Part shown: one piece after another, positions 38,986 through 60,749 of the stretch
Layout: every line of letters starts with the position of its first letter
Numbering within the stretch: position 1 is the first letter of the stretch
DNA from: Zygnema cylindricum
Taxonomy: Eukaryota; Streptophyta; Zygnematophyceae; Zygnematales; Zygnemataceae
Assembly (NCBI GenBank): GCA_037447655.1
Contig: JBBHKE010002729.1
Location: forward strand, 1-64,000
DNA length: 64,000 nt
Reading direction: 5' to 3'
Notes under the pieces: generated by a model
The model's database searches: none
Told to the model about the DNA's origin: nothing
What the model saw: only the letters and a program-made list of their open reading frames with translations
Program-made: the position numbers and the translations under genes

Positions 38986-39250
38986 CTATTTTTGGTTTTC
39001 CAGCCTCTCTCCTAGAGTGCACTTGTATTTTTGGACCAACTTTGGTCATCCATAACTTAATGCTCAGGTGAGCAAATTCAGTGATTCTTTTTGCTGCGGA
39101 CTCACGCGATTCCAGGCTACATAGGGATGTAGTTGGTCAGAGATTTTGCGTCCCAAGGTTGGAATTAGTCATTGTCAAAGTCAAAGGTGCATACTATCCT
39201 AGAGGCTTAGTAAGTGGACATTCTGGTGTACCATGGAGGTCCGAATTACA
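38986..39250 (+). repeat. Copia I 3' LTR, right part (R-U5)
   Basis: It resembles the end of A/B/D LTRs (CATAACTTAATGCTCAGGTGAGC, GACTCACGCGATTCC) and closes with ATGGAGGTCCGAATTACA, the family's LTR-borne start codon. It abuts gypsy sequence at 39251. Joining it to 26749-27401 would give a ~0.9-kb LTR; that link is inference. Confidence 0.65.
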
Positions 39251-40300
39251 TCCTTCGGAAACTCGAATGATCTCTACTGTTCCTCCGTTCACTGCCACTC
39301 TTGGTCCTTCCTCAACAACTGGTTCAAAGGCTGAGCGTGACTGCTAAATTTCAGGATGAACCTCTGATAGTAGTTTGTCAAGCCTAACAACGTGCAGAGT
39401 GCAAAGATGTCGTGAGGAGGGGGAAGGGAATTAAAGGGTGCCACCTTAACCATATGGTTACCCACTGTCCCGAGGTAACTTCATGTCCCAGGTAAATAAT
39501 CTTCTGCACCCCAAAAATTCTCTTACACGGTTGACATTTCTAGCCGGCTGCTTAGAGGGCCCGTAGTACAATCTGTATGTGCTCAAGGTGTTCCTAAAAG
39601 GTCTTTGAGAAGATAATTACATCGTCGATATAGCACCGTGCACACTCGATTCCTCGGAGCGCCTCGTCAATGGTACGTTGGTATTTGGCTGGTGCATTCT
39701 TTAGCCCGAATGGCATGTACAGCCATTGATACAACCTGTACCCTGCCCAAAACGCTTTCCTTTCCCGGTGCATTGGTTCCATCGCGATCTGATGGAACCC
39801 ATTCTTCATGTCCAAGGTGGAATAAATGGCGGCCCCGACTACTGAGTCAAAAATCTCTTCCGCGGTTGTCATTGGGTATCCATCAGGTACAGTGGCCGCG
39901 TTAAGCATCCGGTAGTCTCCACACCTCCGAAAGTCTACCGTTTTCCCATACGAGTCCTTCTTGGGTGGGAGAACTGTTGGGGACGCAAACCCGTGGTGTC
40001 CGGTACTTTCGTGCACCAATCATGTTTCCACCAGGGTTTGTACCTTTGCCGTGATGAATTCCATTTCCTTGAAGCTTAGCGGGTACTGCTTCTGCCAAAC
40101 AGTAGCCGTCTCGTTTATTAAATCGATCCGAAAAGGGGGTTCCTATGTAAATGCTAACGTCGATGTTTGACAAAGAGAACACCTCTTTATTCTCTTCCAA
40201 TTGATTAGAGAGCCGGGCCTTTTGCTGATGGTTCAACTGCTCCCTTAAGGTCCAATCCATCTTCCCAAGATCCACCGCTGCCCATGCCTCTGGGGTCTAC
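39251..40300 (-). pseudogene. Ty3/gypsy RT and start of RNase H
   Basis: Reverse transcriptase of the methyltransferase-bearing gypsy element. Right to left: the pre-RT segment (QLEENKEVFSLSN), the fingers (FASPTVLPPKKD, RCGDYRMLNA), palm (IYSTLDMKNGFHQI, YMPFGLKNAPAKYQ) and YIDDVIIFS at 39621-39632, then LGLTNYYQRFI and the RNase H tether (NQLLRKDQEWQWTEEQ). These are Ty3/gypsy, not copia, motifs. The text changes frame several times. It stops at 39250, where the I LTR has cut off RNase H. It follows the methyltransferase on the same strand. Confidence 0.87.
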
Positions 40301-40589
40301 CCGAGCAGGAGATATCAAATTCCAACCCTACTTGTGGGTCTACTTCACCTCCTCCTATCAAAATGTTGTTGCTAACAACTTCCGCTAAGCAGTCCCCTTT
40401 TGAGCCTCCGCTCCCCCCCACTGAGGAATCCCTTGATTTGGGTGAAATGCTAGGACTGGAAAATTTTGATGATAAAATATGTCTCTTTGCCTCCCTTTCG
40501 CCCTCAAGCTACAAGTTGGCCTGTACTGCTAATAACTGTGGAGCTTGAAGGTAGATAGCCCTTGAGTGAGCAGACCGTAGGCTAGAAAA

Positions 40590-41309
40590 GGCAAGAGAAT
40601 GTTTTAACACCCATGTGATTGCATTGAGGTCCATGCTCTGTCCTAGTAGGCGGCACCTGTGGAGGTCTGAAATACCTGGTGCTGCCGTGGTGGCAGATTT
40701 GAATCCCATTGCTTGTTCTCATTCTTCCATCGTTAGTGGTGTCCAAACTCCACTTTTGCTGTCGCATATCATTTCGGCTGCTCCCTTCCGATACAAATGG
40801 CTGTTGGGGAAGGAAACCAAAGTTGGTAGGCCTTCCCGTGGTGCTCCTTGTTTGTTGCACCTGAAGAACGAGGACGATCAACCTTGGTTACTGGAATGGC
40901 CATCCGTCTAGGCCCTAGAATTTGTTGCAGAGTAATCTGGGGATATGTTTTGTGCTTCTGTAGGAGCTGGTTTAGGATTGACAGAGGTATCAAATTGGTC
41001 CAATAATCCCAAACTCTGTGAGCCCTGGATCCCAGTTGCACTGCATCGAAAAGAAGCGCATCACCTAAAATCTGCTTAACTTGATTCCATCTATTGGTGA
41101 CCTGTTTTCTTTTATCATCTCCTTGGTGAACATTTTCCAAAACGTACCCCACTGGTGTGTCTTGGGACAGATGGAGCCACGAAATAAATAATATCATCTG
41201 GAAGAAGATTCCACTTCGATTGTCCTAATGTCCCTCGCCTTTCCCTGCTAGAGAGTATCCTTCACACGGCCATCCTGCTATTACCACATCTACTCGCTCC
41301 AGCATAGCT
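40590..41309 (-). pseudogene. C5-cytosine DNA methyltransferase domain, C-terminal part (in gypsy)
   Basis: Right to left the conserved motifs of the C5 methyltransferase family appear: motif IV VVIAGWPCEGYSLAGKG with the catalytic Pro-Cys (41261-41269), motif VI LENV (41129-41137), motif VIII QLGSRAHR then WTNL (41015-41038), a motif IX-like EQAMGF and motif X-like LLGQSMDLN (40623-40649). A TAG at 41225-41227 interrupts GKGEGH. A TGA precedes EQAMGF, and the frame shifts near 40769. Element D split this domain: the frame of 47756-48016 continues exactly into 41309. The next coding block leftwards is gypsy RT, so the order is PR-MTase-RT. Known precedent: cytosine methyltransferases captured by retrotransposons have been reported in a charophyte alga and a dinoflagellate. 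Confidence 0.85.
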
Positions 41310-41314
41310 AAATG

Positions 41315-42356
41315 TGTAACTCTGAGACCTCCATAAGTCCTCAGAGTGGACAGCTTCCAAGAAGCCTCTAGGATAATCCTGACCCCTTTGTGTTTAAGCA
41401 AAAATAACTGCCACCCAAGCAGACAAAAACGCTCACCAACTTCACCCTTGTGAAGACAAGACTCCCCTGAGTCGATAGCAAAAAGAATCTTTGAGTTTGC
41501 TCCCCTGAGCAGTAAGTTATGGGGGGTCAAAGTTGACCTTTTGTACAGAAGCTCTCTGGGAGAGGGGGTCCTATCTTCTAATTTTTCTAAGTCCTATCTC
41601 TCTCACAGACTCTATCTACTGATGTACGGAACCAATCAGAATTGAGTTCCGTACGTAAAAGTACAGCCGCCGGTGTACTTTATGTACGGACATTGTACGA
41701 CATGCCCTAAATGTCGACACATGTCAAATCCGGATTCGGTGCCATAATCTCCGGAGATTCTACGATCCAACGGAATTTCGCCACGCGTCATCCGATGTGG
41801 CGATGGCCACAAACCGCCGAAATCTTCCTCCGTGATCTCGGCGCTAATCCCGGCCGTCCGATTAAATTCAGATTTAATCGTGGCCGTAATAAATACATGC
41901 GCGGTATTTATTTCACTTCCGAAACAAATGCGCGGTATTGATTCGTAATCCGTACTGTCATTCGTACCGGATCTATGCATCCCGTAAATCGTAACAGTTA
42001 AATGAATTAACGTACGTATTCTAATTTATATAATTATCAAACTATATATCACGTAATACTACTGCTAGATCTAACGGCTAAGGCTACCGGCTATTTCCTG
42101 TCTGCCGGCCGGTAGGTACAAGGATCAAATCCTGCCGCCAGCACATACCTTTTAAATAAATAAATAAACCCTAGTATAAAATTCCCGTAAACCTCAGGAT
42201 AGCCAAGGTAGCCATGGCTCTAGCTTCCTCTCCAATTTCTCAGTGACTGCGACAAGTTTGAGATTTGGAGAGAGAAGTTAGAGGTAGACTGCCTCGGCTT
42301 CTTTCTATATTTCTATTTAGACCTAGAAAATACTTAAAAAACCATTAGTTTCTACA
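41315..42356 (-). repeat. Copia D 3' LTR
   Basis: It runs between TGTAACTCTGAG and TTTCTACA (plus strand). Inward lies the polypurine tract, AATAAGGGGAG on the minus strand (42357-42369). It includes the palindrome AGCCATGGCT (42210-42219) and a tRNA-like segment on the plus strand (42072-42132). Confidence 0.94.
42072..42132 (+). other. tRNA-like segment in D LTR, antisense
   Basis: TAACGGCTAAGGC (D-arm-like) is followed by GGATCAAATCC (T-arm-like) 37 bases later. Both boxes are unchanged at 47466-47526 and in F (60471-60531), although F's neighbouring U3 is strongly diverged. Confidence 0.6.
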
Positions 42357-42369
42357 CTCCCCTTATTTT

Positions 42370-45300
42370 CTAGTCAATCTTTAATTTCAGACCACACTTC
42401 TCCCTGCAAAAAATTAGCTTAGGGGAAGGCACAGGTTTGGTCATCATATCTGCTACCATCTCACTATCTGGTCTGTACTCTAAACTGATTATTTTGTTTT
42501 CTACTTTCTCTCTAACAAAACTGAGTCTGATGTCCATGTGTTTGGCTTTAAAATGGTGTTTAGGATTGGCAGAGATAGCGATTGCTGCCTGATTATCACA
42601 AAATATTTTCTGCACACCACTCTTAAGGTGACCAAGCTCACCAAGCAAAGACTTGACCCACATCAATTCTTTTACAGCAGAGCAAGAGGCCATATACTCA
42701 GCCTCCATGGTGGACTGAGCAATAACCTTTTGCTGTTTGCTACTCCAACAGCAAGCCCCATCACCCACATATAATACATATCCAGAAGTACATCTCCTCA
42801 TCGGAGCATCACCATAACTGGCATCACTCCAAGTAGTGATGTCAGTATTCTCCCCACCCAAATGCAACCATAGATCTCTAGTTCCTACCAAGTATCTAAG
42901 GACTCTCTTAGCTGCCTCCCAATCCTTCTTAGTGGGAGCATTTAGACTTCTACTCAGCACTCCTACAGCTGCAGCTAAATCCGGCCGGGTACAATTCATA
43001 AAATAGATTAGACTTCCCACTACTTGCCTGTAAGGAATAGTCTGCATGAACTTCTGTTCATCATGAGATAATTCCTCGTCTAAGACTATGACTCCTTCTT
43101 CCTCACTCCCCTCACTTCCCTTCTTCAACTCCATTGGAGTTGTACAACTATTAGCTTTATCCATTTGAAATTTTTCAAGCATGTTCCCTATTGCTTCTTT
43201 TTGAGTCAATCTTATAATTTTCCTTTTTCGGTCTCTCTCTACTTGAATTCCCAAAATATATCTTGCTTCTCCCATATCCTTCATTTCAAATCTCCCCTTA
43301 AGATCGGTTTTCAGTTTGTTAATTTTTTCCATTGATTTACTTAATACAAGCAAATCATCAACATAAATTGCAATAAATATCAAACCTTCCTCATCTTCGA
43401 AAACATAGATTGAGTGATCTGAGCTGATCCGAATATATCCCAGACCGGTAAGAAACTCATCAAGCTTCTTATTCCATTGTCGAGGTGCCTGTTTCAAACC
43501 ATAAAGAGATTTAATCAGCCGGCATACCTTACTCTCCTCTCCTTCTTCCACAAACCCTTCGGGTTGTCACATGAAGATCTCCTCTTCCAATTCTCCATGC
43601 AAAAAGGCTGTTTTTATGTCCATCTGGTGCACTTCCATGTCTTCCGCCGCCGCTAAACTGAGAAGTATGCGGACGGAGGGAAATCTGACCACCGGAGCAA
43701 AGGTTTCCTCGTAGTCAATTCCTTCCTTTTGTGTAAATCCCTTTGCCACTAATCTGGCCTTGTAGCGCTCGATTGTGTTATCTGGGTTCAGTTTTAGTTT
43801 GAAAACCCACTTACAACCGATTGGTTTTCGGTTAGGTGGACAGTCCACCAGCTCCCAAGTATCGGCTGCCATGATTGAAGCCATCTCCTCATTGATGGCT
43901 GTCTTCCACCGGTTTCTTTCTGGACAAGTCATCGCCTCTCCATAAGTTTGAGGTTCATCTTGATGAGATAGTTTAGTTACCTTGTTATTAACCTGTTTTT
44001 CTTGCAGTTTTTTGCTACTTCTCCTCCCCCCCTCAAAATCTGAGGCCGGAATAGATGGTTCTCGTGGATTCTTTCGAACAAACTCGACTTCTCCCCTATC
44101 CCTTGATTCCGAATCAATTTCCACCACGTCTTCCGCTTCGAGTAGAGTTGTCACTGGAGTTTCCACAGCCGGGTCCTTTTCGGTCTGATTTGTACCTGCA
44201 AGAATGTCATCTTCTCTAAAACCTGGATAGTTAGGAAGCTCAAAGTCATCGGAATTTTCTGACTCAAATCTGATTTTTACTGACTTCGTATATTTGAAGG
44301 GATCTACAGACTTTCCTTCATCCATAACTACTAGATGCTTTACTAAGATTATATCTTCCCTTTTTAGATCATAAACTCTATATCCTTTAACATCTTCATC
44401 ATATCCTAATAAGTATCCTGGTTTTCCTTTAGGATCTAGCTTCCAATTTGACCGATCAGTATCTAGACTGAACACTTGACTGCCGAAAACCTTTAAGTGA
44501 GATATGTCTGGTTTCCGGCCTGTCCATCTCTCATAAGGTGTTTGATCTTTTATAGCTGAAGTAAGAACTCTATTCTTGAGGTTATTAGCACAGTTCATTG
44601 CTTCTGCCCAAAACCTTTTCCCTATCCTTTTATCTGACAACATACTTCTAGCACTATCACTTAGTGTTCTATTTAACCTTTCAGCTACCCCATTCTGTTC
44701 CGGATTTTCTGGAACTGTCTTTTGGTGTTGAACCCCATCTTCCCTCAGAAAATCCTCAAACTGGTTAGAAGCAAACTCTCCACCATTGTCACTCCTTACT
44801 CTCTTGATTGGAGTTTCATGGAGTTTTTCGCTCCATGCTTTATATTGTCTAAAACAATCCTCAGCTTCGGACTTGTTTTTCAAAAAATATACCCGGGAAT
44901 ACCGAGACCAATCATCAGTTATAGTCATCATAAATCTCTTCCCCCCCGGTGAGGGCACTTTAGCCGGTCCCCAAATATCTGTGTGTACTAGATCTAGAAT
45001 TTTTTCTCCCTTATAGGTGGCTGACTTAGGAAAGGGTAATCTGTGTGCTTTACCTTGAGCACATCCACTACAATCACTTATATCATCACTCTCACTGAAC
45101 TGAATCCCTTCCACCACTCCCATCTTTTTCATCTCTCTTAACTTATCTAGATTCACATGCCCAAGCCTCTTATGCCACATCATAATATCATGAACACCAG
45201 CATAATAAAGTTTCTTCTTTTCATTACTTAAGATCAGTCTAAACATCCCATGGCTACCTTTCTCAGCAATGAAATAGACATCATCCTCAAAACTAGCAGT

Positions 45301-46728
45301 AAAGACTCCTTCCCTAGTGCTAGTAAAAAAACCCTTATCATCTAATACTGATGTAGAGATAAGATTTTTGTTCAGCTCCGGAATAAACAATACATCGGAG
45401 AATGTTAATATGGATGTCTTTCCTTCTACTAACACTTTTAGATCTACCGATCCTACAAGAGTAGTGGTGACTATCCTCCCATCCCCGTACTCTATCTCTA
45501 CGGTGGGAATCTTTCTTATCTTAGTGAACAGGTGTCTATCCTTACACATGTGCATGGAGGCACCTGAATCTACAATCCAGCCTGCTTCACCTTTCAATCC
45601 ACCGTAAGCACATTTCTGCCTCCGTGGAATTTCGACCTCATTTTTCGCCTCCAACTCCTCATCCAAAAGGAGCTCATCGTCCTCGTCCTCGGATTCAGCC
45701 TCAAGTACCTGTGTGACAAGGGCCTTTTTCTTTCCTCTCGGGGTACCACTGGTCTGCCCCTCCTTTAACCGAAGCTCGGTTAGCTTAGTGCACTCTGCCA
45801 TATAGTGCCCCGGTTTCTTACAAAAATGACATAGTCCTTTGGGAGCCCTTGGTTCGAACTCATCGGCCGGTTTTTTCTGCTCCCTACCCCCATAGTTTCC
45901 GACCGGTTTTCGGGAATCCCTGTTCCTCCAATCAGTCGCTGTTGCCAAGGCTTGGCCACTCTTTCCTCCCCTTCGGATCTCAATTGTATTCTCTTGAACG
46001 AGAATCATTCCTACCACTGAGTTCCATATCCACCTTGAGTCAGGCAAGTCCTGCACACGGTAAACTATGTTCACGAACTCATCAGGTAACTTCATCAGTA
46101 AACAGTTAACCTTTTCTTTTTCACTCAAATCTTTTCCCGCACTCTGTAGCTCCATGAAGAGTGTAGCAAGCTCATTGCAAAAATCCAACATATTTCCCCC
46201 TTTGTATACATACTCCTTAACTTTCTGATCAGCCAACTGTTGTTGCTGAATCGTACCACTTCGGTACATCTCTATAAGAGCCATCCAAAGATCGGATGCC
46301 CTTTCTACCTGCAAATGAGGACATCCAAGTCCTTGAGTGAGATGGCGTAGGATGAAGTGCTTTGCCGCCATATTGTTGAAGTCCCAGGTTTCAGTATCAT
46401 TCTCCTCGTTCCTCGGAATAGGTGACATGAATGCTAAACCAGTTGCTATTGGTGTGGTCGCCTCCTTCTCCTTTCCTTTGTCCACCACCTCTCCTTCCTT
46501 TGTTTCCTCTGTTGAAGGTGAATCCTCTTTCCTGGTGAATCTGCTTCCTCCAAACCCTGGAGGAATTCCAAGACTTGATAGACGCCCCAATCGTCCACTC
46601 ACTATCCCCCAAAACCTTTTTTCGCATAGAGCTCCTATCATCATACTTTCCCAGTATATGAAGCCAGCTCCATTAAAGATTGGTACCCTAGAGGGTGGGC
46701 CCATAACCTGTAACTCTGAGACCTCCAT
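42370..46728 (-). CDS. Copia D gag-pol polyprotein (one internal stop)
   Basis: One frame of 1452 codons from ATG 46728 (inside the 5' LTR) to the TAG at 42370. Gag core spans residues ~100-260, zinc knuckle CHFCKKPGHYMAEC residues 300-313, protease DSGA residues 387-390, integrase finger HKRLGH and CSGCAQGK, core DIWGPAK, SDNGGEF and QNGVAERLN, RT YVDDLLVLSKS (43354-43365 for YVDD), and RNase H with TWSDASYGDAP and CDNQAAIAIS. TGA at 43567-43569 stands where F and B have an Arg codon (CGA/AGA) in MRQPEGF, at the start of the RT palm. CGA to TGA is a CpG deamination change. It would yield a 1053-residue product lacking most RT unless read through. The protein start MEVSELQVMGPP is encoded by LTR end plus primer site. 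Confidence 0.94.
46694..46708 (-). promoter_or_regulatory. Primer-binding site of D
   Basis: GGTTATGGGCCCACC on the minus strand abuts the 5' LTR with no spacer, identical to A and B. It is complementary to the initiator tRNA-Met anticodon arm and encodes part of Gag residues 7-12 (QVMGPP). Confidence 0.85.
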
Positions 46729-47750
46729 AAGTCCTCAGAGTGGACAGCTTCCAAGAAGCCTCTAGGATAATCCTGACCCCTTTGTGTTTAAGCAAAAATA
46801 ACTGCCACCCTGGCAGACAAAAACGCTGACCAACTTCATCCCTGTGAAGACAAGACTCCCCTGAGTCGATAGCAAAAAGAATCTTTGAGTTTGCTCCCCT
46901 GAGCAGTAAGTTATGGGGGGTCAAAGTTGACCTTTTGTACAGAAGCTCTCTGGGAGAGGGGGTCCTATCTTCTAATTTTTCTAAGTCCTATCTCTCTCAC
47001 AGACTCTATCTACTGATGTACGGAACCAATCAAAATTGAGTTCCGTACGTAAAAGTACAGCCGCCGGTGTACTTTATGTACGGACATTGTACGACATGCC
47101 CTAAATGTCGACACATGTCAAATCCGGATTCGGTGCCATAATCTCCGGAGATTCTACGATCCAACGGAATTTCGCCACGCGTCATCCGATGTGGCGATGG
47201 CCACAAACCGCCGAAATCTTCCTCCGTGATCTCGGCGCTAATCCCGGCCGTCCGATTAAATTCAGATTTAATCGTGGCCGTAATAAATACATGCGCGGTA
47301 TTTATTTCACTTCCGAAACAAATGCGCGGTATTGATTCGTAATCCGTACTGTCATTCGTACCGGATCTATGCATCCCGTAAATCGTAACAGTTAAATGAA
47401 TTAACGTACGTATTCTAATTTATATAATTATCAAACTATATATCACGTAATACTACTGCTAGATCTAACGGCTAAGGCTACCGGCTATTTCCTGTCTGCC
47501 GGCCGGTAGGTACAAGGATCAAATCCTGCCGCCGGCACATACCTTTTAAATAAATAAATAAACCCTAGTATAAAATTCCCGTAAACCTCATGATAGCCAA
47601 GGTAGCCATGGCTCTAGCTTCCTCTCCAATTTCTCAGTGACTGCGACAAGTTTGAGATTTGGAGAGAGAAGTTAGAGGTAGACTGCCTCGGCTTCTTTCT
47701 ATATTTCTATTTAGACCTAGAAAATACTTAAAAAACCATTAGTTTCTACA
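46709..47750 (-). repeat. Copia D 5' LTR
   Basis: It is 1042 bp and nearly identical to the 3' LTR. The CCAAT-like ATTGGTTCCGTAC and a weak TATA-like TGTACAAAAGG (minus strand, near 46935) precede R-U5. The gag ATG is 20 bp from its inner end. Confidence 0.94.
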
Positions 47751-47755
47751 AAATG

Positions 47756-48180
47756 GGGTCCCAAAATATTGTCTACATTCAAGGGAAGGCTTCGATGAGA
47801 TCTGCATATGGCGGATATGGGAAGTTGTTGGGGATAGAATTGGTGAAGTTGTTGCAGTTTGTGTTCACTGACGGCCTGAGCATCTGGGGAGATTTCCACG
47901 GCCACATAAGATTCCACTTTATACCCTGCTTTCAATACAGCTTCTAAGTCCGAGCTAATTCTAGTGAATAGTGAAAGTATCTGGAGTCCGGAATCCGGAA
48001 TTGATAATGACACCACTTGTCAAAGGAAATTTTGATTTTCGGGTGGAATCTCTGAAGATTCCGACCGAGTCTTTTTATTCTTGGCAAAAACAACTACAAA
48101 GGAATGGTCCATTTCCCGCCAAAGTGTGGCTACCTGTGATAATCTACTCTAGTATCCCTCTTCCCACCGCTTGGAAATAG
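47756..48180 (-). pseudogene. C5-cytosine DNA methyltransferase domain, N-terminal part (in gypsy)
   Basis: The open frame from 48016 reads ILSLFTRISSDLEAVLKAG (motif I, 47951-47980), then YVAVEISPDAQ (motif II, acidic residue near 47895), then QLHQFYPQQL and ILGPH, which lead into motif IV at 41309 once D is removed. The SAM-binding motif I is usually F-x-G-x-G; here both glycines are changed (TRISS), so activity is unlikely in this copy. Sequence between 48016 and 48180 is the linker from the protease. The fold assignment rests on the joint motif set. Confidence 0.82.
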
Positions 48181-48189
48181 GGAATTGCT

Positions 48190-48701
48190 ATATCACGTCT
48201 GCGATGTCAGTAGCACTGGCGAGCAGCTCTGATAGAGTGTGGGTAGCATAAACAGGATAACATCTGGCTACTGGAACATTGGTTTTCGCCATGTTCCATA
48301 AATCCAATAGTACCACCACTTTTACCCCCTCTGGATCCTCAGGGTCTCGAACAGTAAATTGCTCCTTCCACACACTTAAACCCATATTCAACCTTGTCTA
48401 GGTGGCCATCCCCAACAGAATTTCAAACTGCTTACCTTCCACCAACAAGAAGGGCAGCTGAATTCGGACCTTTTGACCCGCGTCATTGGAAAAATGGATT
48501 AACATGGCTTTGATAATTCCGTGAACCGACTAGTTCCCACAGCTAATTGTGCTCAAACAGATGTTACTTGGGCAAATTTTTGGTCGGAGTTCCTCCGGCA
48601 TTTGGAGCAGAGCCGAAGTTGTTATTAGGTTTGGGAGTGCTCCGGTGTCGACCACTACATCTTGGTATCCCTCGTATCCATTAAGTTTAAAATTTCCCGT
48701 C
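48190..48701 (-). pseudogene. Ty3/gypsy aspartic protease and linker
   Basis: Retropepsin-like domain: GYEGYQDVVVDTGALPNLIT has the catalytic DTGA (near 48640-48655) and EILLGMAT (about 48405-48430) is the conserved ILLG-type strand. A stop separates the two. A following block (VWKEQFTVRDPEDPEGVKVV, 48188-48391) leads to the methyltransferase. C inserted just upstream of the DTGA; the reading from 55053 (VAVILNRTGNFKLNGY) crosses the target site in frame. Confidence 0.82.
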
Positions 48702-48706
48702 CGGTT

Positions 48707-49711
48707 TGTTGAAATTATTAGAAGTATGTGGTATTTTCTAGGTCTAAACAGTTCAGTACAAAAAGGAAAAGAAAAGGGCGTACATCCTGTCTCCACCTCC
48801 TCTCTCTACCCACCATACTTGTTGTAGTCATTAAGGGATAGAGAGGGTGGCTGAGCCATGGATGTCTTGGCTCAGCAGGCAAGACTAAAGAGTGACTTAA
48901 GTCACTCTCAACAAAAGGTTGAGTCCGGCAGGACTCGAACCTTTGACCGGCATAGCGCGGCGTAGCCGTTAGCTCTAACCAGTTTGTCGTAAAAGTCCGT
49001 TAGGAGATATAGATTTCAAAATTTATATAAACTATTGTATTGTACTGAAATCAATTAACTAGAATTTGAACGATGAAACATTGAACTTGTTAAAGTTTAG
49101 TGCGGACGTCATTTCGCACGAAACAAATGAATCGGACATTTGTTTCGACGATTGACATTTAATGTTGGATTCAATCCGACGGCACATATCATCGCCGAGA
49201 CCGCGGAATGGTCACTTTGGCTTTCTGGACGTGGCATGACTTGGCGCCGGGTGGAAGGATGACATTCGGTCGTGAGAATTCTAAGAAATGTATGGACGAG
49301 TTGAAAAGTGACACGCGTCCACTCGGTGGCCTTGTCGTAGACAGACCCTACAGAAAAGACATCGGTCGTAGTACCTTTTTGTACTTTACAATCATATGAT
49401 TGGTTTGTACTTCAGTAGATTGGGGCTTTGAGAGGGATTTAGGACTTAGGAAATTTGGTAGGCAGTCACCTCTCTCTAAGAGAGCTTTGTATTAAATTGG
49501 CATTTTTGCCGGCTCATAACTTATCGGCTAGTTGGTCGTTTTCTGTGATTCTTTTTGCTACAAACTCAAAGGAGTCTAGGCTGCACAGAGGTGCAGTCAA
49601 ACTATCAGTTTGCCTTCCTAGACAGCAGTGGTTGTGGCTTGAAGTGGGTTAGTTAAATACTATCTAGAGGCTTCTTGTATTCTGTGGTCCAATGGAGGAC
49701 ACAGAATTGCA
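48707..49711 (+). repeat. Copia C 5' LTR
   Basis: It starts TGTTGAAATTATTAG and ends GAATTGCA. It includes an antisense tRNA-like segment (48931-48981) with GGTTCGAGTCC intact, and a weakened TATA (TGTATTAAA near 49487). The gag ATG at 49692 is inside the LTR. Confidence 0.92.
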
Positions 49712-50660
49712 GGTTATGCGCTTACCCACTAGGGTGCCCACCTTTAATGGATATGGGTTCATCTATTGGGAAGCTATGATGATAGGAGCTTTGGGCGAAA
49801 AACGATACTGGGGTATCGTCAGTAGACAAGTGAAACGTCCACCTTCGGGAAATCCACCAGGATTTGGAGGAGTAAGGTTTCCTGCAGCAACAGCTGCCTC
49901 AGCGGAAAAGGCAGATGATGGGGGCAGCAGTGTGTCAAAAAAAGGGAAAGGGAAGGAGACACACCTCACTCTTATTGCCACAGAACCTGGAGCCGCGACC
50001 GTGAAGACCGCGGAGAACGATACTCAAATGTGGGACGATGTAAACATAGCTGCCAAAAACTTCATTCTGAGGCACCTCACTCAAGTTTTGGCCAACCCTC
50101 ATCTTCACATTTACAAGGCCGAAGAGTTGTGGGTGAGTTTGGTGGAGATCTATAGAGCTATAACTACTCAAGAGCTCCAGTTGGCTGAGCAAAAGCTAGT
50201 GAGTTACACTTACAAAGGAGGAAAAATGCTAGATTACTCTAATGATCTTTCTTGTTTGTATATTAAGATGGAGAGTGTCAGGTGGACAAGTATAATGAAA
50301 ATAAAAGTTAACAGTCTTATCATGAAGTTATCATATGATTACGAGAACATAGTGTACCGAGTACATGAAATGGGTTATAGTTCATGGGAATAGAACACAG
50401 TGGTCCGGATGATACTTGTGTAGTAAAACACAATGGAGATTAGGAGAGGAGGAAAGAGCATTCAAGTTCTTGCAGCAAGAGGGGACCGATGGGGGAAGGA
50501 ACCAGAGAAACCGTAGAAAGGGGACAGAGATAAATCAGGAGGACCGAGGCCTCCAAAGGGTCTTTGTCATTTTTGCATAAAGGCGGGACACTTCATAGCA
50601 GATTGTGTCAAGCTCCCAGAGTTGAGGCTCCTAGAGAACCGTGGAGAGGGTTCTTCCGGA
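49692..50660 (+). pseudogene. Copia C gag
   Basis: It is open from ATG 49692 to TAG at 50391-50393 (MEDTELQVMRLPTRVPTFNG, NFILRHLTQVLANPHLHIYK). The primer site is decayed (GGTTATGCGCTTACC). A second TAG lies near 50422. The zinc knuckle near 50565-50606 reads CHFCIKAGHFIADC after a one-base change. The B copy helps place the frameshifts. Confidence 0.87.
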
Positions 50661-53600
50661 GGGAAGAAGAAGGCACTTGTGGTCACAAAAGTGATAGGAG
50701 AAACCAAGGACGAGTCCTCGGAGGATGGGGAGCTTCTTCTTGATGAGAGTCTGGAGGAGAAGGAGATCCCTCAAAGACAAAAGTGTGCCCTTGGAGCAAA
50801 TCGGGAAGTACCACAGGAAGGGTGGATCATTGACTCTGCTGCATCCATGCATATGTGTCGTGATAAGCACCTCTTTACTAAGTTAAGAAATATCCTTATT
50901 GTAGAGATAGAGTAAGGGGATGGGAGAGTGGTTACTAGAGATCTAGTGGGGTCAGTAGATATGAAAGTCTTAGTGGAGGGTAACACTTCTATACTTACAT
51001 TCTCAGATGTACTTTACATTCCTCAGCTGAGTAAAAATCTTTTCTCTACGTCTGGGTTAGATGACAAAGAGTTTGATACCTTCACTAGAAAGGGAGTCTT
51101 TAGATCTTAGTATAGGGATGAAGTTTACTTCACGGCAGATAAGAGTAGCTAAAGAATGTTTAGGTTTAACCTGAGTAATGAAAAGAAGATGCTTTCTATG
51201 TTGGTGTTCCTAAGTTGATGATTTGGCATAAGCGGTTGGGGCATGTGCATTTTGATAGGTTGAGGGGAATGAAAAAGTTTGGGGTAGAAGAAGGCATTCA
51301 GTTTGGGGATAATGAAATGATGGATGATTCTAGTGGCTGTGCTCAAGGTAAGGCTCACAAACTTCCCTTTCCCAAAGCCGTCAGATATAGAGATGAGAAA
51401 GTACTAGATTTGGTCCACACTGATATTTAGGGACCTGCAAAAGTACGTTCGGTTGGAGGAAAGAGGTTTATATTGACAATAACCAATGAATGGTCTAGAT
51501 ACTCTAGAGTTTATTTCCTAAAAACAAAGTCTGAAACATCAACTTTTTTTAAAACAATATAAAGCATGGAGTGAGAAGTTGTATGAAAACCCCATTAACA
51601 AAACAAGGAGTGATATTGGGGGGGAATATAACCAGTTTGAGGAATATTTGAGAGATGAGGGAGTGCAGCTCCAGAAAATTGTACCATATAACGCGGAACA
51701 AAATGGGGTAATAGAGAGGTTCAATCAAACACTAAGAGATAGTGCATGTAGTATGTTGGCCAACAAGAAAATAGGAAAGAGATTTTCGGCAGAGGCAATG
51801 AATTGTGCCAACTACATTAAGAATAGAGTCTTTACCTCAGCTGAAAAGGGAGTGACACCTTATGAGAGATGGGTTGGAAGGAAACCAGATATCTCACACC
51901 TTAAAGTGTTCGGTAGCCAAGTTTACAGTCTTGACACAGATAGGAAAAATTGGAAACTAGATGTTAAAGGAAAACCTGGATATTTTGTGGGATATGATGA
52001 GGATGTTAAGGGGTATAGATTCTATGACTTAGCAGAGAAAGATATCATCCTGGTGAAGCACCTATTTTTCATGGATGAAGGGAAGGTATTTGACCCCTTC
52101 AAATATACAAAAAGGATAAGAACCGATTTGAGTCCGAGAGAGAGGAGAACCCGGTCGTTCCTAAAATGGACATGAGTAAAACCGTGATTGCAGATTCAGG
52201 GGAGTTCCGAGATACAGGAGACTTATAGAAAACCTCATATACTCTTATGGACTTCGAGGAGATAGAAGAATTCGGACCAAAACCAGCTTCCATGGACAGG
52301 GGAGCCAATGAGACAATGAGGAGAAATCTAAGGCTTCCATCTATTCCAGCTTCGGATTTTGGGAGAGGGAGAAGGAGCAGCCAAAAGATACAGGAAAAAC
52401 GACCGCTCATAAGGTAACTAAGATATCTCACCCAGATGAGCCTCAATCTTACTCGGAGGCAGTGAATAGTCCAGAGAAAGAAAGATGGATTAGAGCCACA
52501 AATGATGAGATGGCCTCAATCATGGAAGCAAATACTTGGGAACTAGCGGATTCTCATCCAAACAGAAACCTATTAGGTGTAAATGGGTATTTAAACTAGA
52601 ACAAAACCCAGATAATACAATTTAGGGATATAAGGCTCGATTCGTAGCGAATGGGTTCACCCAAAAGGAGGGGATTGACTATGAGGAGACCTTTGCTCTA
52701 GTTGTTCGGTTCCCATCAGTAAGGATTCTTCTCACTCTGGCAGCAGCGGAAGACATGGAAATACACCAGATGGACATTAAGAGTGCTTTTCTTAATGGTG
52801 AGTTAGAGCAAGAAATTTTCATGAGGCAACCCGAGGGGTTCATGGAGGAAGGAGAATAAGCAAAGTCTGCATGCTCATAAAGTCCTTATATGGACTGAAG
52901 CAGGCTCCCCGACAGTGGAATAAGAAACTAGATGAGTTTCTCACCGGTCAGGGATATATCCGGATCAGCTTTGACCATTTTATCTATATGTTTGAAGATG
53001 AGAATGATGTCATTTTTATTACAGTTTATGTGGATGATATGCTTATGTTGAGTAAATCTTCGGAAAAGATCAATAAGTTAAAGAAATATCTTAGAAGCAG
53101 ATTTGATATGAAGGATTTAGGTGAGGCAAAATATGTTTTGGGGGTTCAAATTGAGAGAGATAGGGGGAAGAGGATTATGAGACTTACTCAGAAAGAAGCA
53201 ATAGGTGATATGCTTGAGAAATTCTAGATGGAAAATACTAACAGTTGTACCACTCCCATGGACTTGAAAAAAGTAAGTGATGGGAGTGTAGAAGGAGGAT
53301 TGATGATCTTAGATGATCAGATGAGTCCAGAAGAGAGAGAGTTTAGGAAGTCTATTCCTTATAGACAGGTCGTAGGAAGTTTAATCTGTTTAATGAACTC
53401 TACCAGGCCGAACATAGCGGCAGCAGTTGGAGTACTCAATAGGAGTCTTAATGATCCTAAGAAGAGAGATTGGGAGGCAAATAAGAGAATCATGAGATAT
53501 CTAGTGGGAACCATGAGTTATGGTTGCATTTGGGAGAGAGGCACACTGACATCACTACTTAGAGTGATGCCTGTTATGGGGATGCTCCTATGAGAAGATG

Positions 53601-54036
53601 CACTTCTGGGTATCAGTTGTATGTTGGGGAAGGTGCTTGCTGTTGGAGAAATAAGCAACAAAAGGTGGTTGCTCAGTCTACTATGGAGGCTAATTACATG
53701 GCCTCTTGTTCTACTGTGAAAGAGTTGATGTGGGTCAAGTCCTTGATGCAAGAACTGGAGTATATGAAAGAGGGAGTGCATGAAGTGTTTTGTGATAATC
53801 AAGCTGCCATTGCAATTGCAGCTAATCTAAAACATCATTTTAAAGCTAAACATATAGACATAAGATTAAGTTTTGTAAGAGAAAAAGTTAAGAATTAGAT
53901 TGTGAATCTTGTATATAGATCTGTTGAGGAAATGGTAGCTGATATGATTACAAAACCAGTGCCATCTCCCAAGTAAAAATATTACAGAGAAAAGCGTGGA
54001 TTAAAACTGCAGTTAAAATTAGACTTAGAAAATAAA
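50661..54036 (+). pseudogene. Copia C pol
   Basis: Blocks in order: protease (WIIDSAASMHMC, Gly to Ala, 50822-50860), GAG-preintegrase, integrase finger (HKRLGHVHFD, CAQGKAHKLPF), core (TDI*GPAK with a stop, SDIGGEY with Asn to Ile, EQNGVIERFN), RT (52871-53227, YVDDMLMLSKS) and RNase H (53228-53898). Stops fall near 50913, 51108, 51428, 52228, 52624, 52857, 53225 and 53562. It is heavily decayed. Confidence 0.9.
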
Positions 54037-54041
54037 GGGAG

Positions 54042-55047
54042 TGCTGAATTTATTAGAATTATGTGGTATTTTCTAGGTCTAAACTGTTTAGTACAAAAAG
54101 GAAAAGAAAAGGGAGGACAGCTTGTCTCCACCTCCTCTCTCTACCCACCATATTTGTTCTAATCACTGAGGGATAAAGAGGGTGGCTGAGCCATGGCTGT
54201 CCTAACTCTGCACGCAGGACTAAAGAGTGACTTAAGTCACACTCAACAAAAGGTTGAGTCCAACAGGACTCGAACCTCCGACTGGCAAAGCGCAGCGTAG
54301 CCGTTAGCTCTAACCAGTATGTCGTAGAAATCTGTTAGAAGATATAGCGTTCGATATTTATTTAAACTATTGTATGGTACTGAAATCAATTTACTGGAAT
54401 TTGAACGAAGGAACATAAAACTTGTTACAGTCTAGTGCGTACGTCATTTCGCACGAAACAAATGAATCGGACATTTGTTTCGACGGTCAACATTTAATGT
54501 TGGATTTAATCTGACGGCACATATCATCGCCGAGATCGTGAAATGGTCACTTTGGATTTTATGGACGTGGCATGACTTAGGGCCGCATGGAAGGATGACA
54601 TTCGGTCGTGGGAATTCAAAGGAATGTACAAACGTGTTGAAAAGTGACACGCGTCCACTCAGTGGCCTTCTCGTACACAGGCCGTACAAAAAAGACATCG
54701 GCCGTAGTACCTTTCTGTACTTTATAATCATATGATTGGTTTGTACTTCAGTAGATAGGGGCTGTGAGAGGGATTTAGGACTTAGGAAATTTGGTAGGCA
54801 GTCACCTCTCTCTAAGAGAGCTTTGTATAAAATTTGCATTTTTGCCGGTTCATAACTTATCGGCTGGTTGGCCGTCTTTAGTGATTTTTTTTGCTATGGA
54901 CTCAAAAGAGTCTACATTACATAAAGCTGCGGTCAAATTGTCAGTTTGTATTCCTAGACAGCAGTGGTTTTGGCTTGAAGTGGGTTAGTTAAATACTATC
55001 TAGAGTCTTCTTGTATTCTGTGGTCCAATGGAGGACACAGAATTGCA
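54042..55047 (+). repeat. Copia C 3' LTR
   Basis: It starts TGCTGAATTTATTAG (second T changed to C) after the purine tract AAAATAAAGGGAG. AGCCATGGCT is at 54189-54198 and a TATA TGTATAAAA near 54825. It ends GAATTGCA before CGATT. Confidence 0.92.
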
Positions 55048-55052
55048 CGATT

Positions 55053-57248
55053 GAGGATTACAGCCACAAATAATGTCTTATAATTCTTATCTATTATAGG
55101 GGTCTTTAGGTCTATTGACCAAAAGACTGACCTGGGTTGTTCAACCCGGTCTCTTTTCTCCCCTCCTGAGTGAATCTCCTCTCCGAGGGCCTATATGAGA
55201 ATTTCTTCCGGCAAGTTATGGGAAAAAGCCAGTGTTTTCACGTGAGTGAGGGCGTAGGGAATGATATGTTTTACTTACATCACTGCCGGTTTGGAGGAAG
55301 GAGGTTGAGTTTTTGGCGACGAAATGGGTAAACCTGGTTCCTCCAGTTTTTCCTACTCTCCCCCCCTTGCTTCGTTACTTTCCTTGTTGGATTCCAACTC
55401 AGCGCGTATTTCAAGTGTGTTATCTTCCGGGCATTCCACCAAATATCGTTGGAACCAGTCTTGGTTTTCTCATTTTTTCTTCAACGTGTTTTTCCATCTC
55501 CCTTTGCTAAGTTGCTTGATAATTCTTGAATCCAGGAGGCAATTTCTTAACGACCCGCGGAGGCGGATTTGTGGGTTTGATTCTGAGACCCGTTTTGTCG
55601 TTTAGAATAACTACCCTGGGGGTGAATGATAAAGGTCTAGTGGCCGTTCTGTTCTCATCTCCTTAATCCAGTCTTTGCTTGTCTCTCCTCTGCTTCGATA
55701 TTGAGTTACTTAGTTTCCTAGGACTGTCTCCTACGGTGACATTCCATGCTCCAGAAAGGAAAGTTTGTGCGTGATGCGCTTTAGGAGGTTCCATATCCCA
55801 CCCCATCACATTGTCAGCCTCTCCGCCTGCCGCGAATTCCTCTTCAAGCTCCTCTAGCTTTTGTAGTAGTTCTTATTTGCTCCGGTAGAGTTTCTGAGCG
55901 GCTGTCAGAGCACGATTCCAGGAGGGAGATCCCAAACGTAAGGCTCCCTATTCTGCAGCCATTGCGGCAAGTTGTTGGCTCTGCTGTTTGATAATAATCT
56001 TCGGGGTGAGCCTTGCTTGACCTGGTGTTTGTCGTTCCGGTTCTTCCATGGTGCGACCTCCCCAAGGGTAAAGAAGCTGGAGAGGGAAAGGGTTTACGGC
56101 AGTTACACCTTCGCCAGTAAACAGTGCATATTGCATCATCTCCTTCTAGACCCCATTCTTTTGAAAACACTGCCCCTCCTTGTGACCCATGAAACCGCAA
56201 GCCTCACACTTAGAGCCCTCGGTGGTGTATTTGCCCCTTAATTCATTAGAGATTTGGGCATCATTGAATTTTGGAAGTTTGATCCGTAGCAGCTGGGTTT
56301 GTGACATTTTTGCATTTTCAGACCGGTGAGTCAGACGGTAATTGTCCTTGCTCATCAGGATTTTGTCTTCCAATCCCCCTCCTTGTTTCCTTTCCTGCTG
56401 CTTCTTGGTCCATTCAACTCTTTCCTTTTCCCATTCTTTATGCTTGAGGGCCAATTGTGGTTTTAGCTTCCGAGGGCAGCACTTCCATCCATGACCTCTT
56501 TGATGACAGTTCAAACAGGTGTACAGGAAGACGCAGTCATCGGCCCCCACGGCGGGTACGGATCCGCTATCCACCACCTATTTCCCTTTAAGTTTCTGTA
56601 ACGCTAGAAGCTCTGCCAATTCCTCATTGTCAGGAGGCGTTTCTCCGATAAATCGTGCAAAGTTTCCCTTGGTTTTGCCTGTTACCGCCTTCTCTCAGGC
56701 CTCACCATGAACGAAGTGGTCGTAGAGTTCATGGTGGCTAAAGAGATGTCTTTAGCGGAAGGATTGATGTTTTGGATGACCTGTCATGCGATCCAATTGT
56801 CAAGGGCAGTCTGCCCCGTGGGTCAGAACAAAATCCAGAAAGCGATAAAGTATTTGGTTGCCATAACCGAGAGATCAATAGTCAATAGTTTGTCTTTTGG
56901 CAGAGGCGACAGTCTGTAGACCAGATTCAGAGGGTTTCACTCTTCAAACAACGAAATTCCGAGAATTATTTTGATAACCAATTCATTCCTTTCTATGTAA
57001 AGGAGCCTCAAGGTGATCAAAAGAGGGGTACACGGTGTGGGGTCTACAACTATTCAGGTGGCTGCTTTGGCGGATTGGATGGCCTGCAGCTGGTTGACAT
57101 AGGCCTGACCTTGGGCCTGCAGTTTCATGTCATCTGTGAAGGCGGCGGTAACAAGAGTGGCAACAGTTGCAGCCAAGTCGGCTTCTGCTTGCAAGACTGC
57201 CGCATCGAGAATCGGGTTTGAAATCTTGATGCTGGGAGCCATCAGCAT
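55053..57248 (-). pseudogene. Ty3/gypsy gag and gag-protease linker
   Basis: Right to left: a start MLMAPSIKISNPILDAAVLQ at 57248, an alanine-rich helix-like stretch, a stop near 57054, then decayed capsid text. Two zinc knuckles are clear: CLNCHQRGHGWKCC (56476-56517) and CEACGFMGHKEGQC (56167-56208), both CX2CX4HX4C. A basic, charged region (KEWEKERVEWTKKQQERKQ) lies between. The linker to the protease (near 55550-55780) reads in pieces (GLRIKPTNPPPRVVKKLPPGF). Many stops are present. The gene belongs to the same element as the protease, methyltransferase and RT to its left. Confidence 0.78.
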
Positions 57249-58570
57249 AGGTTGTCGCCCTTTATAATCTCTTAAAGCGCCCCCAGCAAGATAATTGAAT
57301 ATTCCCTACAGGAGTCCAACCAACGAACCAAAATCCTTCCTTAATTGGACAAACGAGTTTAGATAACCGGTATTCCACAAAAGACTAGAGCCAACCGGTA
57401 CTGTCAGAGCTCTTTACAGCAAGAAATCACAAAGTCTACAGAACACAAGTCACATGCCATAGCAAGTAGACAACAGTCTTGAGGGAAACCTTGCAAGCCG
57501 GCTTGCAACAGTAGATAAGGTAAGGACTTGTTACAAGAGAAAAAATATGGAGCTCAAAGACATTTCACCGACATCAAACTATGGGCCCTTTAAAAAAAAA
57601 CCTTAACTTGAAACTAGCTTCTCACTAAAATACTTAGTTGAAACCCTAGCTTATAAACTGTTCGACAAATCCCGAGAAAAACGCCTGCCAAAAAATGACA
57701 AACTTCCAATGTTGGATTCCCGTGTTTAATTTGAAACAACTTCTACAATGCCAAATTGAATTTATCTTATGCTTTCGCTAACCGTATAGCCACACTAAAT
57801 CCTATATGTCTTTGAGCATGCAGGTTTCTATGCTCAAATGCTGCTAGTTTCTAGAGACGGCCGCTGCGTTGCCGCCTCGCAACGCGTTACATCTACACCT
57901 CAAGGATAAAGACCCTCCCTAAACTAAGCAATAATAATGGATGAACCTCCGAGGGTTCATGACTTTTGACATTAGTCAGATTCGGTGTCGTTGAGTTCTT
58001 GTCCTCCGATGTCGCACCGAGTGTACTCTGACCCTTATCCTATCCGTACCTCGAACTGTACATCCATGTATGAACCTGTCACGTCGTATATGAATCAATT
58101 AGTATAGGCCCAAGTGATATTACCCATTGACGTCTTACGGCATGACAACTGTCGTGCATGGCTATACAAACGCTAATGACATGCATCTAATCTAGCTTGA
58201 GTCGCCCAAAAGCACCAAAATATGAATCAGTGTTCCATATGTAAAGTATAACCAGAGTAACAGAACAGAAATACTACAAGCAATTATATATGAATTTGCT
58301 TAACGAAGTGCGATATGACAAATATCGCCGACTCAACAAAAACAAAAATAAAACAAGGATATATTAATAACAATGGGATCCCCCCCCCCCCCCTAGCTCC
58401 TTAGCCTGCCGAGGAGCTGGCAAGAACTCCAGGTAAGTTACGACATCCGTGGCAGAACCATTGTCCCTCTGGAATAGCGTGTAGGGGTGGGACTAAGCAT
58501 TCCATACGGATTCCTAAATTGCAGTAGTCGCACAGCAGCATAGTCGTTTCTCCATCGTTGCGCCAACACA
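57249..58570 (-). other. Non-coding interval, candidate gypsy LTR/leader
   Basis: No coding frame is credible. On the minus strand it lies between the stop of an integrase and the start of gag, the place of an LTR plus leader. A possible left part TGTTGGCGCAACG follows the integrase stop within 10 bp. I could not fix a matching CA end or primer site; TGCTGGGGGCGC near 57285 is a weak candidate. A C-run sits at 58381-58393. Confidence 0.45.
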
Positions 58571-59702
58571 ACTAACACTCAGTGGCCTCGTTAATCCGCA
58601 TCCGCCATGGGTCCATGTTGTGGGATAGATCGGGGAAGTAACACAGAGCACAAATTTTTGAATGCTCTCGTAAGGTTTGTGTGTCGGCTCCCTGTAGACT
58701 CAGTAATCCGTTGGAGTCGATTCTTGTAATTCTCAAAATGTGAGCTGAAACATTCGTGTCGAGCGTATCGAATGCTTGCCGTCGCAAATAAATAGATTCC
58801 CACACTCGAAAAGGTTTGTGTTGTGGCCAATGACTACCACTGCCAGTTGTAGCAATCCGTAAGGAGTCGCGATGTTGGGCGATCTGCAAATTTTTTAAGG
58901 CCATGGGCATGACCCTAGCAAAAGGCAATGTTCGGTTAGTAAGTTCTTCCAAAAAAAAGGAGTCTGATATGAGAGTCAAAGGTAAACTAGCAGTTTTCTG
59001 TACATTTTTACCCAGTAGTGGGTTTCAACCAAACAACACATTATATGGACTGAAACTTGCTAAACTGGCATGTACAGACATCCGATAACTTATGGCAATA
59101 TGCCCCAATGATTTGTCCCACACAATAATCTCTTTTTCTAAATAATGTTTACGCAAAACCCGTTTAAATGTTTGTACAGCTCTCTATGCCAAACCGTTTG
59201 CTTGAGGATGATCGCGACTCTTTCGTCGGTGATTGATTAACGCCTCATCTAACATCTCTAGAAATTCGCGACGAAACTATGTTCCCTTGTCTGTAATACT
59301 TCTGCAAAGGCTCCATATCCGAGGAGAACATGCTCTTTAAAATTTACGGTGGTGAGTTTGGCCGTTTTCTGCGGGAGTGCCACATCTTCCACCCATTTGC
59401 TGAAATTCTCGATCATTATCGTGATGTATTGCTTACCCTTTAGAGAAATTGGAAAGGGCCCTGCCAAAACACACGACCACCTGTAAAACAGACCCCGAAT
59501 AGGCAAGGGTTGAAGTGTAGTCTGCCGGTTTGAAAATGAAGTTCGTAAATGATCACATGTGTTGCATTCGTGCAACATCAACGCCAAGTCGGCTTGCATT
59601 CGCGACCACCAATAACGCGCATGTACCAAACTCATTCGTTTAGTACCATAATGTCCAAGATCTGTATGAATCTGATTTATAAGCAATAGTCGTTCCGTCG
59701 GT
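58571..59702 (-). pseudogene. Ty3/gypsy integrase remnant
   Basis: Right to left: zinc-binding HX4H...CX2C (59668-59555, HTDLGH ... CNTC), core text GPFPISLKGKQYITIMIENFSKWVED (first catalytic Asp replaced by Val before LAGP), the HPQANGLA box near 59195-59220 in another frame, and a C-terminal block (ILRITRIDSNGLLSLQG, CALCYFPDL) ending in TAG near 58569. Spacing is that of Ty3/gypsy integrase. F cut it at 59702. It may be the 3' end of a second copy of the same gypsy family, placed head to tail with the gag at 57248. Confidence 0.83.
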
Positions 59703-60749
59703 TGTAACTCTGAGACCTCCATAAGTCCTCAGAGTGGACAGCTTCCAAGAAGCCTCTAGGATAATCCTGACCCCTTTGTGTTTAAGCAAAAATAACTGCC
59801 ACCCTGGCAGACAAAAACGCTGACCAACTTCACCCCTGTGAAGACAAGACTCCCCTGAGTCGATAGCAAAAAGAATCTCTGAATTTGCTCCCCTGAGCAG
59901 TAAGTTATGGAGGGTCAAAGTTGACCTTTTGTACAGAAGCTCTCTGGGAGAGAGGGTCCTATCTTCTAATTTTTCTAAGTCCTATCCCTCTCACAGACTC
60001 TATCTACTGATGTACGGAACCAATCAGATTTCAGTTCCGTACGTAAAAGTACAACTGCCGGTGTACTTTATGTACGGATATTGTACGATATGGCCTAAAT
60101 GTCCACACGTGGAGTATCCGGATTCGCTCCTTAAATCCTCGGAGATGCCGCGCTCCAATGTTACATCGCCACGTGTCATCCGATGTGGCGCTGCCCACAA
60201 ACCGCCGAATTCTCCTTCCGCGATCTCGGCGCAATTTCCGGCCGTCCGATTAAACTCGTTTTTGATCGTAGCCGTAATAAATACATGCGCGGTATTTGTT
60301 TCGCTTCCGAAATCAATGCGCGGTATTGATTTCATATCCGTACCGCAATTCGTACTTTTACAATTCCATATCTATGTGTCCCGTAAATAGTTATAGTTAA
60401 ATGAATTATTCTACGTATATCTGTATAAATAATTATCGTACTATATACTATGCATCAGTACCACTAGACTTAACGGCTAAGGCTACCGGCTACCTCCTAG
60501 CTGTCGGCCGGCAGGTACCAGGATCAAATCCTGCCGCCGGCATATACCTTTTAGTCATTAATCCGTAGACTAATATAAATTTCCCGTAAACCTGAGGATA
60601 GCTTAGGTAGCCATGGCTCTAGCTTCCTCTCCAATTTCTCAGTGACTGCGACAAGTTTGAGAGTTGGAGAGAGAAGTTAGAGGTAGACTGCCTCGGCTTC
60701 TTTGTTTCTATTTAGACCTAGAAAATACTTAAAACCATTAATTCCTACA
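59703..60749 (-). repeat. Copia F 3' LTR (1047 bp)
   Basis: It runs between TGTAACTCTGAG and ATTCCTACA. R-U5 (59703-60000) and the outer ~150 bp match D closely, but the middle of U3 is diverged. The tRNA-like boxes at 60471-60531 are kept. The polypurine tract normally next to it is missing (15-nt deletion after 60753). Confidence 0.92.

Follow-up and report, generated by a model that had tools for sequence, protein, structure and literature searches.

Background

Host cells silence retrotransposons by cytosine methylation; this usual picture is reversed when the silencing enzyme is carried by an element. The closest described systems are those of de Mendoza et al. (2018; PMC5890265, excerpted text): a Gypsy element of Klebsormidium nitens, KnitGypsy-Dnmt3, with a Dnmt3-related DNA methyltransferase (DNMT) in Pol, and DIRS and long interspersed nuclear element (LINE) retrotransposons of Symbiodinium with a DNMT. 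In yeast, as the same text has it, two DNMTs of SymbioDIRS methylate CG de novo, and no methylation was seen with KnitGypsy-Dnmt3, a result that the authors regarded as inconclusive. According to the available part of a 2019 review (PMC6338049), methylase-encoding transposons are not in land plants such as tracheophytes, and the available part of a 2025 paper (PMC12344493) repeats the streptophyte and dinoflagellate cases. Here, a further case is described from Zygnema cylindricum (Streptophyta; Zygnematophyceae), in a stretch of 64,000 nucleotides (GenBank assembly GCA_037447655.1, contig JBBHKE010002729.1, positions 1 to 64,000 of the forward strand) that is called the window below. The minus strand of the window holds, from 57243 to 39238, one broken Ty3/gypsy copy with a C5-cytosine DNA methyltransferase (MTase) inside pol, and the same MTase-pol fusion is found in six database polyproteins (P0001-P0006). 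The reading that we favour, with some reserve, is that this dead copy comes from a lineage with a DNMT3-type MTase in pol and, mostly, a PHD finger behind the integrase, and that the MTase would methylate the DNA of the element or of its target.

The window element and its relatives have the trait that defines KnitGypsy-Dnmt3, a DNMT3-type domain inside Gypsy Pol. As described in the excerpted text of PMC5890265, KnitGypsy-Dnmt3 is also a Gypsy element with long terminal repeats (LTRs), whose Pol open reading frame (ORF) contains a non-rearranged DNMT related to Dnmt3, and the copies of the element keep the catalytic residues and are under purifying selection (ratio of nonsynonymous to synonymous substitution, Ka/Ks, < 0.2). 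It differs in its repeats, described as DIRS-like and compared here by description only, whereas the relatives found here have Glu-Cys (EC) in motif IV and two domain orders. SymbioDIRS-Dnmt3 also combines a captured DNMT with two Pol domain orders, as in the MTase placement of P0001-P0003 versus P0004-P0006; however, SymbioDIRS-Dnmt3 and SymbioLINE-Dnmt belong to other classes, the tyrosine-recombinase DIRS elements and the LINEs (same excerpted text). The term "PHD" is absent from the main text of that paper. A chromatin reader at the integrase C-terminus is known from chromodomain and Tudor Gypsy elements (chromoviruses; Ectocarpus families, PMC12477816, available part), but here a PHD finger is the reader, in the same chain as a DNA methyltransferase.

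Among solved enzymes, DNMT3A, DNMT3B and DNMT3C are nearest to the family profile and to the structure model, and they have the same motif order; unlike the proteins described here, they are host enzymes, with Pro-Cys (PC) in motif IV of the DNMT3A rows and 12-20% identity in the fold alignments (best 50 of 753 rows). In the open-licence literature, as far as its available text extends, no report was found of a PHD finger together with a DNMT in a gypsy element, of two orders in Gypsy, or of the EC motif. The initial annotation of this DNA had suggested that a protease-MTase-reverse transcriptase order in this lineage may be new. The kind has been known since 2018 from the charophyte Gypsy element (PMC5890265, excerpted text), and novelty is confined to the details; the present case is well supported and extends the kind to a lineage with a DNMT3-type MTase and, in most members, a PHD finger, in which the domain order takes two forms and the catalytic motif is altered.

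Methyltransferase inside a broken gypsy copy

Read 5' to 3' on the minus strand, the copy consists of gag, insert C, protease, MTase part A, insert D, MTase parts B and C, and reverse transcriptase (RT). The domain order is gag-protease-MTase-RT. The features are as follows, with profile positions referring to the family profile described below.

55053..57243, minus strand: gag remnant, from a three-frame reading and its zinc knuckles; several frame breaks; start placed by eye at the ATG near 57243
56476..56517, minus strand: zinc knuckle (CCHC) CLNCHQRGHGWKCC, within gag
56167..56208, minus strand: zinc knuckle (CCHC) CEACGFMGHKEGQC, within gag
48401..48685, minus strand: protease region, from reading; DTGA near 48650; one internal stop; PF13650 E 0.021, below cut-off
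47753..48019, minus strand: MTase part A (motif I region, profile positions 29-112); 53.3 bits as a window ORF; tblastn with P0004-P0006
40877..41311, minus strand: MTase part B (motif IV PC, motif VI ENV, motif VIII; profile positions 125-269); PF00145 together with part C, profile and tblastn; one stop at 41225-41227
40581..40868, minus strand: MTase part C (LPTLVS segment and motifs IX-X); profile, tblastn and reading; in another frame than part B; stop at 40719-40721
39238..40070, minus strand: RT, broken, with CYIDD; PF00078 3.2e-17; tblastn with P0001-P0006
48707..55047, plus strand: insert C, Ty1/copia, between gag and protease; LTRs 48707-49711 and 54042-55047, 89.1% alike
41315..47750, minus strand: insert D, Ty1/copia, splitting the MTase; LTRs 41315-42356 and 46709-47750, 99.2% alike

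The order given in the initial annotation, namely gag with two zinc knuckles, a DTGA protease, the MTase and a gypsy RT with YIDD, is present on the minus strand. Its RT is confirmed by PF00078, with no other family at E <= 1, and is of gypsy type, not copia type; for the protease the DTGA motif was found, but the profile match stays below the cut-off. Both inserts are bounded by 5-bp target duplications, exact for insert D (AAATG, at 41310-41314 and 47751-47755) and matching at four of five bases for insert C (CGGTT at 48702-48706 versus CGATT at 55048-55052). The duplicated bases keep one codon frame on both flanks of each insert (CAT TT for D, AAY CG for C), and insert D splits the MTase, with profile position 112 on one side and 125 on the other. 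These in-frame inserts with their target duplications, together with the six fused polyproteins, uphold the view that the C5-MTase lies inside the pol of a Ty3/gypsy element and is not a nearby host gene.

The claim that the frame runs unbroken is correct at the two insert sites but not elsewhere. In addition to the stops listed above, four stops lie between the protease and part A, the frame changes near 40868-40877 between parts B and C, and the RT has several breaks. Because of these stops and frame changes, the window copy is dead and unable to make a working polyprotein. Protease precedes RT in this copy, and the RT homology reaches about 39238 and ends before RNase H, which was lost by truncation (tblastn with the relatives); an integrase and PHD finger sit in an adjacent copy. 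The end of the gypsy RT adjoins a 170-base stretch at 39041-39208, with the truncation point at about 39.2 kb. This stretch recurs in opposite orientation at 33044-33213 (73.5% alike), beside two copia elements of the same strand.

When parts B and C are read through, with X at the stops and at the frame change, they match PF00145 at 7.9e-9 (35.8 bits, cut-off 22), as the proposed DNA_methylase assignment would have it. On separate pieces, PF00145 was found in the first 28 codons of B only (19.6 bits, below cut-off); the remaining 151 codons of the same B reading, taken alone, gave no PF00145 match, and part A alone gave no MTase match in Pfam. The motifs are GWPCEG for IV (Pro-Cys) and LENV for VI (Glu-Asn). 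As annotated initially, the motif I region and motifs IV, VI, VIII and IX/X are all present, but IX/X lies in another frame than IV-VIII.

Candidates in the search for relatives were limited by length, and padding of the query was needed. With a 180-residue query of the window MTase, no homologue was obtained (0 of 64 candidates with E <= 0.001). A length-padded query of parts B and C led to the polyprotein P0001 (E 8.4e-7, 1 of 458 candidates), and the MTase region of P0001 led to P0002-P0006 (E 4e-192 to 2e-28; 6 matches including itself); scores were computed for the 7989 candidates with the most words in common.

A family profile was then made from the MTases of these six relatives, without any window sequence. 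Among 590 ORF pieces of the window, four match this profile (58.5, 53.3, 38.9 and 37.7 bits, E <= 3.1e-11); the next scores are 6.8 bits, for the ORF holding the first 28 codons of B, and 0.6. The 53.3 bits of part A are an independent test, since the query that retrieved P0001 did not include A. The three parts are collinear on the profile, with A at positions 29-112, B at 125-269 and C, from SHLYR onward, at 291-363. In 20 control sets (one reversed window and 19 codon-shuffled), the maximum was 6.3 bits. A chance match as the source of the MTase signal is rejected by these controls and by the six fused polyproteins.

Relatives in the database

The six polyproteins are 1512-2013 amino acids long, and each joins MTase, RT, RNase H and integrase. 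P0004 and P0006 are near-identical proteins, leaving about five distinct sequences among the six. RT precedes RNase H, and RNase H precedes integrase, in all six, although RNase H of P0006 is partial and below the cut-off. Two orders can be seen: MTase-RT-RNase H-integrase-PHD in P0001-P0003, and RT-RNase H-MTase-integrase in P0004-P0006, followed by PHD in P0004 and P0005. Therefore, the annotated position of the MTase between protease and RT stands for the window, and its position before RT also for P0001-P0003, but in P0004-P0006 the domain lies between RNase H and integrase.

A PHD finger is matched in five of the six relatives, above the Pfam cut-off in P0004 and P0005 and just below it in P0001-P0003 (22.6-22.9 versus 24). 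P0006 has no PHD match, and its sequence diverges from that of P0004 inside the finger. MTase identity in five pairs of relatives (0.80, 0.59, 0.40, 0.33 and 0.29) is about that of integrase plus PHD (0.81, 0.66, 0.37, 0.33 and 0.29). Because the relatives were found through their MTase, the share of kin without MTase is not deducible from them. Even so, they suggest more than an isolated curiosity: a lineage whose polyproteins are long and open, with a second chromatin domain and two orders.

In viral contigs, the P0001 query gave no match and the polyprotein alignment gave 0 of 46 stretches; with the MTase alignment, 1 of 17 stretches was retained (L001:7749-8903, IMG/VR), matched through the motif VIII pattern. 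This candidate was rejected as a relative: by eye it is an ordinary phage Dcm-like C5-MTase with PC and ENV, and no retroelement gene was recognised adjacent to it. In genome contigs, 0 of 23 stretches were retained.

Integrase and PHD finger upstream of gag

An integrase-PHD end at 59704-58428, which is absent from the initial annotation, lies upstream of gag.

58428..59704, minus strand: integrase with a PHD finger at the C-terminus, from a gypsy copy; PF17921 4.1e-10; tblastn with P0001-P0005 across integrase and PHD
58443..58577, minus strand: PHD finger, damaged, with one stop and, by eye, Arg at the expected His ligand; PF00628 5.3e-8 with X at the stop
58380..58393, minus strand: run of 14 G shortly downstream of the PHD stop, in a position resembling that of a polypurine tract; from the sequence

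The tblastn match of P0006 in this region reaches 58527 only. The integrase-PHD end stops about 1.2 kb before gag, on the same strand as the gypsy copy, and the stretch from the 14-G run to gag would be LTR plus leader. A single LTR-like interval lies between PHD and gag, with many short inverted termini, none of them convincing; inspection by eye showed no tRNA primer site. On the simplest reading of this layout, the integrase-PHD end and the gag-protease-MTase-RT copy are probably tandem members of one family with an LTR in common. A perfect 18-base palindrome, possibly structural, is situated before gag at 57491-57508.

The 5' part of the integrase-PHD copy is cut at 59703 by another copia LTR. 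It belongs to a third copia element, from 59703 to 64000, with an LTR stretch about 98% like the insert D LTRs (300 bases). This element seems to leave the window at the right end, and the rest of the integrase-PHD gypsy copy should lie beyond, perhaps with its own MTase.

Evolutionary history of the fusion

Unrooted trees of the window and the six relatives only were built from the MTase (parts B and C, 239 columns), the RT (189 columns) and the larger integrase-PHD piece (286 columns). All three split the window plus P0004-P0006 from P0001-P0003 (Shimodaira-Hasegawa-like approximate likelihood ratio test, SH-aLRT, and bootstrap 100/100). P0004 and P0006 group with P0005 in the MTase tree (55/65) and in the RT tree (90/89), and with the window in the integrase tree (64/66).

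The window shares the MTase-before-RT order with P0001-P0003, though the trees place it with P0004-P0006. Because of this shared order, the most economical history on these unrooted trees would be that the MTase was captured once and later moved once. The alternative would be two separate MTase captures.

Enzyme type and possible function

The six relatives and one piece from the window were combined in a profile that was compared with solved sequences. DNMT3A came first (1.5e-11), then DNMT3C and DNMT3B; among later matches were 4onj (a DRM listed as "DNA methyltransferase"; 2.3e-6, one short stretch), DNMT2 (1.2e-5), HhaI (1.7e-4) and DRM2 (5.1e-4). Three collinear stretches against DNMT3A, and the collinear window pieces, indicate the order I-IV-VI-VIII-IX-X and not the DRM rearrangement. 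The structure models are of low confidence (P0005 MTase, mean predicted local distance difference test score, pLDDT, 49.3; P0003 MTase, pLDDT 54.5 and predicted template modelling score, pTM, 0.55). With the P0003 model, the best 50 of 753 Foldseek rows are all DNMT3A or DNMT3B entries or complexes (best E 1.1e-4); these rows have a root-mean-square deviation of 8-12 and a query TM-score of 0.39-0.49, so that this weak model serves as support only. The enzymes are thus supported as a family nearest to DNMT3A and DNMT3B, the DNMT3 label resting on the family profile.

In motif IV, all six relatives have EC, versus PC in the window and the DNMT3A rows. The relatives retain the EN of motif VI as well as the stretch S.A[HR]R.R..W of motif VIII; all six, like the window, have the catalytic Cys and the Glu of motif VI. 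In live copies, the MTase could enter the particle together with RT and then methylate either freshly made cDNA or the DNA of the integration site. By analogy with the chromodomains of chromoviruses, the integrase-borne PHD finger might tether integration to chromatin that bears a particular histone H3 tail. The likely benefit would be that new copies receive a methylated, self-like state, limiting host damage or attack on unmethylated cDNA. Apparently intact relatives carry the MTase, most of them with a PHD-type reader, and such elements may mark their own DNA. P0003 and P0005 offer ready sequences for asking about methylation of own cDNA and about Glu-Cys in a DNMT fold.

DNMT3A and DNMT3B combine a catalytic domain with a PHD-like ADD reader. 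A bolder extension, which we consider doubtful and put forward only tentatively, is that this lineage, with at least three divergent branches, joins the two halves of DNMT3, the catalytic one in pol and the PHD finger on the integrase, to install itself, already methylated, in chosen chromatin, with EC perhaps suited to an RNA-DNA hybrid or cDNA.

Several observations weigh against a DNMT3-type enzyme that methylates element or target DNA in a single gypsy family. Part B of the window alone has bacterial HhaI as its best solved match (9.4e-4), with DNMT3C at 0.1, and part A alone reaches DNMT3C at only 0.98, behind an unrelated chain. PF00145 is below the cut-off in P0001 and P0003 (13.7 and 15.1 bits) and unlisted for the other four relatives. 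The MTase is less conserved than the RT in P0001 versus P0002 and P0003 (0.80 and 0.59, against 0.90 and 0.78). The replacement of PC by EC may weaken or change catalysis, and the window copy, as stated, is dead. The assignment of the integrase-PHD end and the gag-protease-MTase-RT copy to one family is based on their adjacency, their common strand and modestly supported trees. The yeast result for KnitGypsy-Dnmt3, inconclusive as its authors consider it, also belongs here (PMC5890265, excerpted text).

This yeast result and the EC in all six relatives, with the EN of motif VI and the stretch of motif VIII retained, would also fit an MTase domain kept for a non-catalytic task, either DNMT3L-like or as a nucleic-acid-binding module that aids RT, packaging or integration. 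Such a role is possible, if unlikely: the catalytic Cys and the motif VI Glu in all six and the window, and the PC of the window, are not needed for a purely structural role.

DNMT2 methylates tRNA, and its presence among the solved matches of the family profile, together with the unusual motif IV, could point to an MTase acting on RNA (genomic RNA or primer tRNA) instead of DNA; with DNMT3A far ahead of DNMT2 and DNMT3 entries filling the best 50 of 753 fold rows, this explanation appears improbable. That a host DNMT gene lies beside, or was struck by, unrelated retroelements and mimics part of pol is suggested by the dense nesting of copia elements in the region, but, unless all six fused relatives are artefacts of gene models, it is hardly credible against the database proteins (six, about five distinct) in which a single chain contains MTase and RT and against an MTase-RT match gap of about 162 codons in the window versus 165 residues in P0001. 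The reading of a DNA-methylating enzyme carried in gypsy pol is preferred.

Copia elements and other content of the window

Since LTR divergence is larger in insert C than in insert D, C would be the older of the two, and the gypsy copy presumably predates both. The window as a whole is a dense copia nest, in which one 300-base stretch is present in six copies and others in fewer. By eye, the ORF lists of the window showed no recognisable host gene, and the window had no Rfam match. ARAGORN called a tRNA-Leu (taa) at 8512-8603; because the stretch holding it is repeated at 2272 and, less alike, in the insert C LTR, the call is probably copia LTR and not a gene.

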